From the NCBI RefSeq assembly GCF_000711725.1, contig NZ_JONP01000004.1, forward strand, positions 62,001 through 126,000: DNA of 64,000 nt. The letters are read 5' to 3'. Under the pieces are notes generated by a model. The model searched no databases. It was not told the DNA's origin and was given only the letters and a program-made list of their open reading frames with translations. Positions 3,782 to 57,588 of this stretch are shown here, piece after piece. The translations under genes and the position numbers were made by a program. The first letter of the stretch is position 1, and each line of letters starts with the position of its first letter. The stretch comes from Roseomonas aerilata DSM 19363. Lineage in GTDB: Bacteria; Pseudomonadota; Alphaproteobacteria; Acetobacterales; Acetobacteraceae.

Positions 3782-3807
3782 GGCGCGAGGGCTCGCCTCG
3801 CGGGCCC
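3781..3807. terminator. Hairpin between convergent genes
   Basis: The stem GCGAGG/CCTCGC (3785-3790 and 3796-3801) has a five-base loop and is extended by GGGC/GCCC arms with a two-base bulge. It fills the gap between the aldehyde dehydrogenase stop and the MFS stop, a position expected for a bidirectional terminator. There is no T-run, so termination may be inefficient or need Rho. Confidence 0.45.
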
Positions 3808-4979
3808 TAACCCACGCGGCGGAGCGGGCGCGCGAAGAGCAGCAGCGCGCCCCCCGCCGCCAGCAGCGGCAGCGCCGCCAGGGACCAGTCGATCCGCGCC
3901 GCCGCCGCGACCACGAGCGGCGACAGCACCGAGCCGATATTGTTGCACTGCGCCAGCAGCCCGAGCGCCGGGCTGATGAGCGAGGGCTCCGGCACCGAGC
4001 GCGGCGCCAGCACGAAGAGCGAAGCGGGAACGGCGCCGCCGATGCCGGAAGCGAGCAGCGCGGCCGCCGTCGTCAGCGGGAGCGAGGCCGGCAGCGCGAA
4101 GGCCCCGGCCGAGAGCAGCGCCATGGTCCCGCCCGCCGCCATGACCAGCACGGCCGGCCGCCGCCCGCGCCGCATCAACCATCCCGCCACGAGGTTGCCC
4201 GCGACGTTCACCAGCGCCGCTGCCGCGCCCACGATGCCGGCCAGCGAGAGCGGCAGGCCGAATCCCTCGATCAGCCGCGCCGGCAGGAAGTTCGCGATGC
4301 CATAGTAGACAATGGAGTAGGAAGCGAAGGCGAGCGCCACGCAAACCGGCAGCCGCGCCCGCCAGAGCGCGGCCAGCCGCCCGCCGAGCCCGCCGGCCGC
4401 CGGCGCGGGCATGCCAGCCGCCCCGATGGGCAGCGTCGCCGCCACCAGCACCGCCGCCGCCCAGGGCAGCAAGGCCGCGACCGTCCAGGCCACGCGCCAC
4501 CCGAAAGCCTCCACCAGCGGCGCCGCGAGCAGGCCGAGCGCGATCCCCGCGGGCAGGACGGCGCTCCAGATCGTCATGGCGAGCGGGCGGTCCCGTTCCC
4601 CGGCGCTGGCCGCGACGAGGGTCGGGGCGGAGACGACGATCGCGAGGAAGGCCGCCCCCTCCAGCGCGCGCAGGGCGTAGAGGGCGCTGATCTCCGGCGC
4701 GATGCTCGCACCCAGCCCTGCCGCGCCGAGCACCCAGAGCCCACCCAGCAATGCCCGGCGGACGCCGAGCCGCGCGGCCAGCAGCCCCGCCGGCAGGCCG
4801 ATGGCCGCGGCGACGAGCGCGAAGACGGAGATGAGGCCGGCAGCGCCCGGCAGCCCGATGCCGAAGCCCTGCCCGATCGCCAGCAGCGAGGGCGCGACCT
4901 TCCCGAACTGCACCGCCGCGGCCACGCCGGCGGCAGCCAGCGCGCCGACCGCCGCCCAGCGCGTGGTCGTCTCAGCCAT
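3807..4979 (-). CDS. MFS transporter
   Basis: The 390-residue protein is almost entirely hydrophobic helices, about twelve membrane segments in two halves, with the loop after helix 2 (LPAGLLAARLGVRRALLGG) matching the MFS G-x-L-a-D-r-x-G-r-R signature in degenerate form and its counterpart in the second half (VAGWLMRRGRRPAVL). It is last in the minus-strand operon and overlaps the preceding permease gene by eight bases, so it is translated with the ABC importer and oxygenase genes. Family members carry small molecules across the inner membrane by proton symport or antiport. Inference: it may be a second uptake route or export the pathway product. The substrate is unknown. Confidence 0.87.
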   Translation of the reverse strand: MAETTTRWAAVGALAAAGVAAAVQFGKVAPSLLAIGQGFGIGLPGAAGLISVFALVAAAIGLPAGLLAARLGVRRALLGGLWVLGAAGLGASIAPEISALYALRALEGAAFLAIVVSAPTLVAASAGERDRPLAMTIWSAVLPAGIALGLLAAPLVEAFGWRVAWTVAALLPWAAAVLVAATLPIGAAGMPAPAAGGLGGRLAALWRARLPVCVALAFASYSIVYYGIANFLPARLIEGFGLPLSLAGIVGAAAALVNVAGNLVAGWLMRRGRRPAVLVMAAGGTMALLSAGAFALPASLPLTTAAALLASGIGGAVPASLFVLAPRSVPEPSLISPALGLLAQCNNIGSVLSPLVVAAAARIDWSLAALPLLAAGGALLLFARPLRRVG

Positions 4980-53019: not shown

Positions 53020-54396
53020 TCAGAGCATCAGGCTCAGCGGATCCTCGACGATCGACTTGAAGGTCGCGACCCATTCCGCCGCCAGCGCACCATCGATGGC
53101 GCGATGGTCGACCGAGAGCGTGACCGTCATGACGGTCGCGACCGCCAGCTGCCCGTCCTTCACCACCGGCCGCTTCTCGCCGGCGGAAACCGCGAGGATG
53201 CCGGCCTGCGGCGGGTTGATGATGGCCGAGAACTCCTTCACCCCGAACATGCCCATGTTCGAGATGGAGAAGCCGCCGCCCTGGAACTCCTCGGGCTTCA
53301 GCTTCCCGGCCTTCGCGCGGGCGGCGAGGTCCTTCATCTCGTTGGAGATGGTGGCCAGGCCCTTCTGGTCGGCCTTGCGGATGATCGGCGTGATCAGCCC
53401 GTCGGGGATCGACACGGCGATGCTGATGTCCACGTCGTCGTAGATCACCATCGCGTTGTCGGTCCAGGTCGCGTTCGTCTGCGGCAGCTTGCGCAGCGTC
53501 GCGGCCGTCGCCTTGATGACGAGGTCGTTCACCGAGAGCTTGTAGGCCCCCGGCCCCTCCTTCGGGGAACGCGCGTTGAGGTCGGCGCGCAGCTTCATCA
53601 GCGCGTCCAGTTCCACGTCGATCGAGACGTAGAAGTGCGGGATGGTCTGCTTCGCCTCCGTCAGGCGGCGGGCGATGACCTTGCGCATCGAGGAGTGCGG
53701 CACCGCCTTGTGCGGGGCGGTGATGACCGGCGCGGGCGCGGCCGGCTTCGGCGCCGCGGCAGGCGCCGGCGCGGGCGCGGCGGCGGCAGCCTGCGGCGCG
53801 GGCGCGGCGACCGGCTTCGGTGCAGCCTGGGCTGCCTCCACATCCGCCTTCACGATCCGCCCGCCTGGGCCGGAACCCTTGATCGAGCCGAGATCGAGCC
53901 CCGCCTGCCCTGCCATGCGGCGCGCGAGCGGCGAGGCGAAGATGCGCCCGGCCTGCCCGTTCGCCACCGGCGCGGGCACCGGTGCCGGTCCCTGCGGCTT
54001 CGGCGCATCCGGCACCACCGGCTGCTCCGCCGCGCCCGCAACCTTGCCGCCCGAGGCCTGCACGGCCTCCAGCGCCGGGCTGCCAGAGGGCGAGGGCGCG
54101 GATTCCGTGGCCTTGGCGGGCGCCGCGGCCGGCGCGCCGGACGGAACCGCCTCGCCCTCCTCCACCATCACGCCGATGGGCTGGTTGACCTGCACGCCCT
54201 CGGTGCCGTCGGGCACGAGGATCTTGCCGAGGATGCCCTCATCCACGGCCTCGAATTCCATCGTGGCCTTGTCGGTCTCGATCTCGCAGATCACGTCGCC
54301 CGACTTGACCTGCTCGCCCTCCTTCTTGAGCCAGCGGGCGAGCGTCCCCTCCGTCATCGTCGGGGAAAGCGCGGGCATCAGGATGTTGGTCGCCAT
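53020..54396 (-). CDS. pdhC: Pyruvate dehydrogenase E2, dihydrolipoamide acetyltransferase
   Basis: The 458-residue protein has one N-terminal lipoyl domain with lipoyl Lys43 in [13 protein letters not shown], an Ala/Pro-rich swinging linker, the peripheral subunit-binding domain (RIFASPLARRMAGQAGLDLGSIKG, about 155-190), a second Ala/Pro linker and the catalytic core ending with SVDHRAIDGALAAEW, whose His-Asp motif DHRxxDG is essential. It transfers acetyl groups to CoA at the core of the complex. It is third in the pdhA-pdhB-pdhC operon. Confidence 0.96.
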   Translation of the reverse strand: MATNILMPALSPTMTEGTLARWLKKEGEQVKSGDVICEIETDKATMEFEAVDEGILGKILVPDGTEGVQVNQPIGVMVEEGEAVPSGAPAAAPAKATESAPSPSGSPALEAVQASGGKVAGAAEQPVVPDAPKPQGPAPVPAPVANGQAGRIFASPLARRMAGQAGLDLGSIKGSGPGGRIVKADVEAAQAAPKPVAAPAPQAAAAAPAPAPAAAPKPAAPAPVITAPHKAVPHSSMRKVIARRLTEAKQTIPHFYVSIDVELDALMKLRADLNARSPKEGPGAYKLSVNDLVIKATAATLRKLPQTNATWTDNAMVIYDDVDISIAVSIPDGLITPIIRKADQKGLATISNEMKDLAARAKAGKLKPEEFQGGGFSISNMGMFGVKEFSAIINPPQAGILAVSAGEKRPVVKDGQLAVATVMTVTLSVDHRAIDGALAAEWVATFKSIVEDPLSLML

Positions 54397-54412: not shown

Positions 54413-55870
<1,458 letters not shown>

Positions 55871-55871
55871 C

Positions 55872-56918
55872 TCAGCGGGTCTCCACCAGAACATCGGTCC
55901 AGAGCTCGGATTCGTCCGGCTCGGGGCTGGACTGGGCGAATTCGGCGGCGTCCGCCACGATCGCCTTCACCTCGTCATCCACCGCCTTCAACTCGGCCTC
56001 GCCCCGGCCGGACTCCAGCAGCAGCTTGCGCACATGCTCGATGCAGTCGCTCTGCTCGCGCATCTTCTGCACCTCCTCGCGCGTGCGGTACTTCGCGGGG
56101 TCGGACATGGAGTGGCCGCGGTAGCGGTAGGTGAGCATCTCCAGCAGGTAGGGGCCCTTGCCCTCGCGGCAGTGGGCAACGGCGCGCTCGCCGGCGGCCT
56201 TCACCGCCATCACGTCCATGCCGTCCACCTGCTCGCCCGGGATGCCCCAGGGCGCGCCGTTCTTCGACAGGTCCTTCGAGGCGGAGGCGCGCTCCACGCT
56301 CGTGCCCATGCCGTAGCGGTTGTTCTCGATGACGAAGACGCAGGGCAGCTTCAGCAGGGCGGCGAGGTTGAAGCTCTCATAGACCTGGCCCTGGTTGGAG
56401 GCGCCCTCGCCGAAATAGGCGAGGCTCACCTGGCCGTTCTCGCGATACCAGTTGGCGAAGGCCAAGCCGGTGCCGAGCGCCACCTGGGCGCCGACGATCC
56501 CGTGGCCGCCGTAGAAGCCCTTCTCGCGGGAGAACATGTGCATGCTCCCGCCCTTGCCCTTGGAATAGCCGCCGATGCGCCCGGTCAGCTCGGCCATCAC
56601 GCCGCGGGCTTCCATGCCGGTCGCCAGCATGTGCCCGTGGTCGCGGTAGGAGGTGATGACCTGATCGCCCTCCTGCAGGGTCATCTGCATGCCGACCACC
56701 ACGGCCTCCTGGCCGATGTAGAGGTGGCAGAAGCCGCCGATCAGACCCATGCCGTAGAGCTGGCCCGCCCTCTCCTCGAAGCGGCGGATAAGCAGCATGT
56801 CGCGGTAGGCGCGGGACAACAGGTCCTGGTTGTGCCCTGCGGAGGGGGCTGTGGAGGGAACCGCCTCCTTCCCGTTCGCGCCGCCGCGCTTTGTCGCGCT
56901 TTCCGTCCCGTTAGCCAT
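55872..56918 (-). CDS. pdhA: Pyruvate dehydrogenase E1 alpha subunit
   Basis: The 348-residue subunit binds thiamine diphosphate with PdhB. The ATG at 56918 has AGGAG six bases upstream and was chosen over a TTG at 56936. The thiamine motif is [18 protein letters not shown] with [11 protein letters not shown], having GEG instead of the usual GDG at the magnesium-binding position, a change also seen in branched-chain E1 subunits. [12 protein letters not shown] is the conserved phosphorylation-loop region of E1-alpha. The first 30 residues are a low-complexity extension. It is first in the pdh operon, downstream of a dyad and promoter described separately. Confidence 0.95.
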
Positions 56919-56964
56919 GGGCTGCTCCTGGTTCAAGCCGCCCGAGACGCGGCCTCCTAGGGGC

Positions 56965-56993
56965 AGATACGGTGGACAATGCCGATCAGCAAG
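56965..56993 (-). promoter_or_regulatory. Promoter of pdhABC
   Basis: CTTGCT (56993-56988) and GTATCT (56970-56965) are spaced by exactly 17 bases on the minus strand, near the alphaproteobacterial CTTGAC-N17-CTATAT form. The same CTTGCT -35 recurs before eno. A TATAAC-like hexamer lies just upstream (56994-56999) as a competing -10, but it lacks a good -35. Confidence 0.45.
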
Positions 56994-57027
56994 TTATAGG
57001 ACTCGGCTAAGCCATTGATGTTGCACC

Positions 57028-57060
57028 GCGTCATGACGATTCATGCAGGGGTCATGACGC
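57028..57060. promoter_or_regulatory. Phased TCATG dyad upstream of pdhA
   Basis: The 10-bp arms GCGTCATGAC (57028-57037) and GTCATGACGC (57051-57060) are perfect inverted repeats across 13 bases. Each arm contains the palindrome TCATGA, and a third TCATG lies in the spacer at 57041. The three TCATG copies begin at 57031, 57041 and 57052, close to one helical turn apart. The site is about 35-67 bases upstream of the -35 of the predicted pdhA promoter, a typical activator position. No regulator gene is adjacent. Confidence 0.55.
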
Positions 57061-57144: not shown

Positions 57145-57474
57145 TCAGAAAAGGCGTCGGTTCGGCGCGTAGGGAACGACGATCTCGTCCCGCGCGACGA
57201 CGTTCAGCAGGGCGCGGGCGCGCTCCTCCAGCATGTCGCGATCGAGGTGCTCGGCGCGCAGGCCGGCCACCTTCCTCTCCATGGCGTCACGCTCCGCCTC
57301 CGCATCGGCCAGCACGAGGCGGGCCTGCGCGATCTCGGCGTTGCGGGCATCTCGCGCGATCAGGCCGCGCGTGCCGTTCATCGCGTGGTGGGCAAAGTAG
57401 CCGCACAGCGCGAAGAAAATCCCTGGAAGCACCAGGGCTTGCGCCCGGCGCTTCACACCGCTGAAGAAAGCCAA
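57145..57474 (-). CDS. ftsB: Septum formation initiator (FtsB/DivIC family)
   Basis: From a TTG at 57474, five bases after GGAGG, the protein has 109 residues: one membrane helix (about 14-30, VLPGIFFALCGYFAHHA) followed by a heptad-rich coiled coil (about 40-85, IAQARLVLADAEAERDAMERKVAGLRAE) and RARALLNVVARDEIVV. This is the FtsB/DivIC layout, a bitopic division protein acting with FtsL and FtsQ. A longer frame to an ATG at 57555 and a GTG at 57456 are alternatives. The position between eno and pdhA is conserved in Alphaproteobacteria. Confidence 0.87.
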   Translation of the reverse strand: MAFFSGVKRRAQALVLPGIFFALCGYFAHHAMNGTRGLIARDARNAEIAQARLVLADAEAERDAMERKVAGLRAEHLDRDMLEERARALLNVVARDEIVVPYAPNRRLF

Positions 57475-57588
57475 CTGCCCCTCCCCCGAAGAGCTTAGGC
57501 TGATCGGAAGTGATCCCCTGACCGTGAGTAGACTGGCACTGGGGCTGCCGTGCAAGGCGTTTCACGGCAAAGCAGTGAAAACTCAGGC

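Follow-up and report, generated by a model that had tools for sequence, protein, structure and literature searches.

Described control of pyruvate dehydrogenase genes

Pyruvate dehydrogenase is the gate through which the products of sugar breakdown pass to acetyl-CoA, and PhaR (AniA) is a regulator that senses stored polyhydroxybutyrate. In E. coli, the pyruvate dehydrogenase genes are controlled by PdhR, a GntR-family protein whose operator has a TGGTNNNACCA core.

A link between PhaR and pdh has been described in two rhizobia. In the accessible text on B. diazoefficiens, pdhA was 2.25-fold down in a phaR mutant, the pdhA promoter, with the published site TGCAGTGCGGCA, showed some shift at 110 nM PhaR, described by the authors as lower affinity, and a footprint-derived consensus, TGCRNYGCASMA, was given for Bradyrhizobium PhaR (PMC6201568). 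According to the accessible part of a report on S. meliloti, PhaR acts as a positive regulator of the pdh proteins and the motif occurs in only seven PhaR-activated genes (PMC12542648). The lineages listed for PdhR in the available portion of another report are Enterobacteriales, Vibrionales, Shewanellaceae and unspecified “several other lineages” (PMC5343134). A literature search on PhaR in Acetobacteraceae, from which subscription papers were mostly out of reach, returned nothing beyond a single species description.

The pdh operon and its promoter

The stretch analyzed here (the window; 64,000 nucleotides of Roseomonas aerilata DSM 19363) carries on its minus strand an enolase gene and a DivIC-type gene followed by pdhA, pdhB and pdhC. 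The E1 alpha subunit gene pdhA (55872–56918, minus strand; Pfam PF00676, E 8.4e-102) most likely starts at the ATG at 56918, which is preceded by AGGAG, the listed open reading frame starting at a TTG at 56936. The genes pdhB (54413–55894, minus strand; PF02779, PF02780 and PF00364) and pdhC (53020–54396, minus strand; PF00198, PF00364 and PF02817) code for an E1 beta subunit with an N-terminal lipoyl domain and for the E2 acetyltransferase. The upstream neighbor encodes a DivIC/FtsB-type septum protein (57145–57555, minus strand; PF04977, E 2.7e-11) and not a regulator. According to the initial annotation, no local regulator gene explains the repeats; Pfam agrees for the two upstream genes, enolase and the DivIC-type gene.

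A putative promoter, TTGCTG-N17-TATCTG, was read by eye before pdhA, with a −35 element TTGCTG at 56987–56992 and a −10 element TATCTG at 56964–56969 (both minus strand) and a predicted transcription start near 56957. A sigma-70 consensus scan gave no promoter match here. CGTATCT was present in all 15 genomes of the genus, 22 bp from CTTGC in every one. Read along the coding strand, the order of elements is a TGC-N3-GCA box, then CTTGC, then CGTATCT. Outside the genus, a TTG lay 34–39 bp after the start of the box in 37 of 39 modules, 35 of them with CTTG. These comparisons drew on pdhA genes, which turned up in 38 of 40 relatives and all 15 genus genomes, and on 80 named loci that were fetched. 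We read the region as the control region upstream of pdhABC in a bacterium of the Roseomonas group (Acetobacteraceae, taken widely), and the TCATG repeats that the initial annotation had placed in such a region do lie in it, upstream of the conserved promoter.

In many relatives two operators would lie ahead of the promoter in this region, namely the palindrome TTAACY-N7-RGTTAA, 19 bp long, and a PhaR box. The window genome appears to have lost the palindrome and to have kept the promoter, together with a PhaR box that is slightly weakened. The explanation we favor, and consider somewhat more likely than not, is a pdh promoter that is influenced and probably activated by PhaR and whose second operator has disappeared from this lineage; the TCATG dyad is then probably incidental.

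A PhaR-type box upstream of pdhA

As in B. diazoefficiens and S. meliloti, a TGC-N3-GC box stands before pdhA and the genome encodes PhaR; the box is also located upstream of the putative promoter, as expected for activation. The sequence CGCGGTGCAACA (57019–57030, minus strand) is a probable PhaR-type box, centered near −69 and slightly weakened in the window. It agrees with the published consensus at 10 of 12 letters, and its two departures (C at position 1 and A at position 10) both occur among the sites in the accessible text of PMC6201568. The predicted box differs from the rhizobial case in its left half, which is degraded relative to the TGTTGCAACGCAACA of relatives. A profile built from 39 modules outside the genus was scored at 127,960 window positions, and the box ranked second; its score of 13.7 is below those of the 14 remaining genus genomes, which range from 16.1 to 26.2. 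The top position, 3938–3958 (score 16.8), was inside the 3′ part of an open reading frame (3807–4979, minus strand) that by eye resembles an MFS transporter and is probably a chance match; with its best position in an unrelated reading frame, the profile is not perfectly specific.

A PhaR-type box was found at the same place in 15/15 genus genomes. Box counts are valid for each detection rule used, one genus box pattern itself requiring GCA[AG]CATCAA and profile scoring not doing so. The distance from box to CTTGC was 37 bp in 11 genus genomes and 48 bp in the other four (G013, G011, G002 and G003), and this 11-bp shift corresponds to roughly one turn of the helix, in keeping with a bound protein that has to face the promoter.

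The PhaR of the window genome (G000, C7) matched PF07879 over the cut-off as well as PF05233, and a TGCAATGCGGCG box was located 96 bp before the listed start of its gene. PhaR was also present in 33 of the 40 relatives, and its DNA-binding domain was identical in G000, its sister genome G010 and G009. Across 49 genomes, the box accompanied PhaR in 35 of 40 cases (five genomes with PhaR being without a box by the rule used) and occurred in one of the nine genomes without PhaR, an association confounded by kinship since seven of these nine are acetic acid bacteria. By analogy with Bradyrhizobium and Sinorhizobium, we infer that PhaR binds here and raises pdh expression. The comparison of relatives suggests that pyruvate dehydrogenase in the family is tied to carbon storage through PhaR.

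A second conserved palindrome in relatives

Conserved before pdhA in the family are the palindrome TTAACY-N7-RGTTAA, the PhaR-type box and the promoter. The palindrome was detected at 72 sites in 60 of 120 family genomes, against 32 for the reversed-letter control (summed over the table). Out of 71 sites examined, 54 were 102–240 bp before pdhA, and in 50 of these the box was exactly 28 bp (21 sites) or 29 bp (29 sites) from the palindrome start, the remaining four showing none. Such fixed coupling of the family's box to a second palindrome sets it apart from the rhizobial systems, the accessible texts of PMC6201568 and PMC12542648 making no mention of the palindrome. The literature search, with subscription papers mostly out of reach, likewise found no description of TTAACY-N7-RGTTAA.

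The other 17 of the 71 sites were away from pdhA, eight of them in a single genome, G097, and showed no common theme by eye; the regulator of the palindrome was not found. In G097 (L158–L166) there are nine copies, one at pdhA and some near gene ends that may be terminator-like. Another stray site (G051, L170) was between genes resembling ctrA and fliI by eye, which is why CtrA was considered as the binding protein. CtrA sites have the form TTAA-N7-TTAA, and the palindrome shares with them the letters of its TTAACC half-site. The half-sites are inverted instead of direct and the gap between TTAA elements is 11 and not 7, a geometry that speaks against CtrA, and there is mostly one site per genome.

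Among 18 genomes chosen for having the palindrome at pdhA, 17 matched a slightly shorter exact pattern, mostly at a single place. Among the other named loci of L032–L110 (Acetobacteraceae, unclassified records and others), 36 of 52 had a relaxed palindrome before pdhA, and for other families the figure was 11 of 27 named loci; the palindrome was present at six of seven Bosea loci and missing from six of seven Methylobacterium loci. In the Bosea-type loci that kept the palindrome before pdhA (L077, L084–L086, L089, L091, L097 and L099), a TGCANTGCGAGA box is farther downstream than the box of Acetobacteraceae. The distribution suggests a second, apparently dedicated regulator beside PhaR in many relatives and, the palindrome being found mostly once per genome, one short piece of DNA could suffice as bait to isolate this regulator. 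The conserved palindrome is a more interesting lead than the TCATG repeats. A more specific proposal, in which an undescribed, nearly single-target regulator binds TTAACY-N7-RGTTAA before pdhA in many Acetobacteraceae, in Bosea and in some other Hyphomicrobiales, at fixed spacing with PhaR in Acetobacteraceae, and in which rewiring in the window's lineage turned this operator into TCATG-N7-CATGA with its axis kept, is considered quite improbable.

Within the genus, the palindrome was kept in G001, G004, G006, G007 and G008, and in G013 with one change. It was absent from the clade of the window genome (G000, G010 and G009), from G005/G012/G014 and from G011/G002/G003, which on a pdhA tree with several weak forks suggests about three losses. 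The second site can thus be lost more than once in the genus while the PhaR-type box stays. The slot in the window (57041–57057) had no residual similarity to the palindrome, the profile giving it −22.85 where genus members that keep the palindrome reach +31 to +40, and no TTAACC-N7-GGTTAA was present in the window's own genome at 0 or 1 mismatch. In G009 (L003), the place of the palindrome is occupied by GATTCCCTGGGAATC, another perfect inverted repeat with a shifted axis. The highest score of the TTAAC-palindrome profile in the window (10.5) belongs to an imperfect palindrome, TTTCACGGCAAAGCAGTGAAA, which is at another gene, at 57560–57580 between enolase and the DivIC-type gene.

The TCATG dyad

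The initial annotation had drawn attention to three TCATG copies spaced 10 and 11 bases apart, the outer two within perfect 10-bp inverted arms. Both features were confirmed, with TCATG starting at 57031, 57041 and 57052 on the plus strand and with arms GCGTCATGAC (57028–57037) and GTCATGACGC (57051–57060) that are perfect reverse complements, giving a dyad that spans 57028–57060 without strand assignment. Each arm contains the self-palindrome GTCATGAC, and each outer TCATG copy is part of it, so that the direct repeats and the inverted ones do not count as separate observations; from the letters, phasing and symmetry can be regarded as two views of one coincidence.

The same annotation had judged the position suitable for an activator, and the dyad axis does fall at an activator-like distance, about −87 to −92 from the predicted transcription start. 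On one reading, the whole triple would be an activator site of helically phased direct repeats of the PhoB/OmpR type. In its favor are the 10- and 11-bp spacings, the position upstream of the promoter and the lack of any such triple in 5000 shuffles of the 208-bp intergenic region, the last figure being overstated because the triple had been picked with the sequence already in view. The PHO box consists of two TGTCAT units 11 bp apart, and repeats about one helical turn apart are what the triple shares with it and with OmpR-type sites. However, the triple is found in one of 15 genus genomes, the self-palindromic core TCATGA by itself accounts for repeats running both ways, and PHO-box-like patterns with up to three mismatches numbered 10 in the window against 11.0 expected. 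A triple acting as activator site is rated very improbable. A PHO box as such was rejected, the best local match having three mismatches and matches in the window being no better than chance. The E. coli PdhR site was also discarded, in line with the dissimilarity noted by the initial annotation, with 0 TGGTNNNACCA in the window.

Inverted repeats of this type were at chance level over the whole window, with five perfect 10-bp inverted repeats (spacer 5–20) where 20 dinucleotide shuffles averaged 6.1. Within the short intergenic region such a repeat is uncommon, appearing in 18 of 5000 shuffles. In the 6.43-Mb genome, GTCATGAC was counted 74 times and its reversed-letter control 24 times. The chance level in the window, along with the weakened box and the lost palindrome of this lineage, would fit a region that is degenerate save for its promoter, in which dyad and PhaR-like box are both functionless. 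We regard this as fairly unlikely, as 15/15 genus genomes have a recognizable box whose distance from the promoter is consistent with helical phasing, and the PhaR domains are intact.

The inverted arms could also act in RNA, as a hairpin in transcripts reading through from divIC into pdhA, and the minus strand folds to −20.4 kcal/mol (z −2.8). The fold is upstream of the putative promoter, however, a terminator scan found none, and the paired arms are not conserved, so that such a hairpin is barely credible. A terminator or leader hairpin was considered unlikely.

Comparison of the 200 bp before pdhA across all 15 genus genomes placed the triple and the 57028–57060 dyad in G000 only. Copies B and C are kept in the sister genome G010, where copy A reads ACATG and the dyad is not intact; in the 13 other genomes the dyad is absent from these 200 bp. 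A single TCATG (copy A) is present before pdhA in G009, which has its pdhA upstream sequence in common with Roseomonas nepalensis (L031). Conservation in close relatives, on which the initial annotation had staked its proposal of a regulatory site, was thus largely lacking, and the reading of the dyad, found in one genus genome out of 15, as a conserved regulator site is not supported. The third TCATG copy (57030–57037) extends over the spacer and the PhaR box's left half, where relatives read, for example, CGCCATGTTGC and the window reads CGTCATGACGC, and the dyad overlaps the PhaR-type box by 3 bases. The dyad straddles the vacated operator slot and the border of the PhaR box, and most likely it is no conserved binding site in its own right; the outer TCATG dyad is probably incidental.

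Possible replacement of the lost operator

TCATG-N7-CATGA (57041–57057, no strand assigned) has its axis at 57049, which is the axis of the relatives' palindrome, and is identical in G010. This raises the possibility that the lineage of G000 and G010 replaced the palindrome by TCATG-N7-CATGA on the same axis with the spacing to the PhaR box kept, a rewired operator that would be bound either by a changed form of the old regulator or by a new one. The paired letters occupy positions 2–6 of each half, and five consecutive pairs at any one given odd axis have a window background of 0.9%, or about 1.8% for the two spacings allowed. These odds are modest and post hoc, and 3 of 163 intergenic axes reached an equal score. 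The motif is within a 41-bp stretch unchanged between G000 and G010, but 4952 of 20,000 random placements of the 19 differences gave a run as long. Moreover, the motif occupies the slot in two genomes only, and the two other palindrome-less clades of the genus showed no repeat of more than two consecutive pairs on that axis. For a candidate TCATG-N7-CATGA regulon, the analysis covered site counts, with 22 sites in the 15 genus genomes (0–3 each) against 0 for the reversed-letter control, so that the string may be more than a product of pure chance. Rewiring is accordingly kept as a live but minority reading that is on balance unlikely; if true, it would make TCATG-N7-CATGA a natural case of operator turnover. 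The same 17 letters, TCATGATCTCCTCATGA or their complement, are found at C13:101097 in G000, C149:215792 in G010 and C9:131776 in G007.
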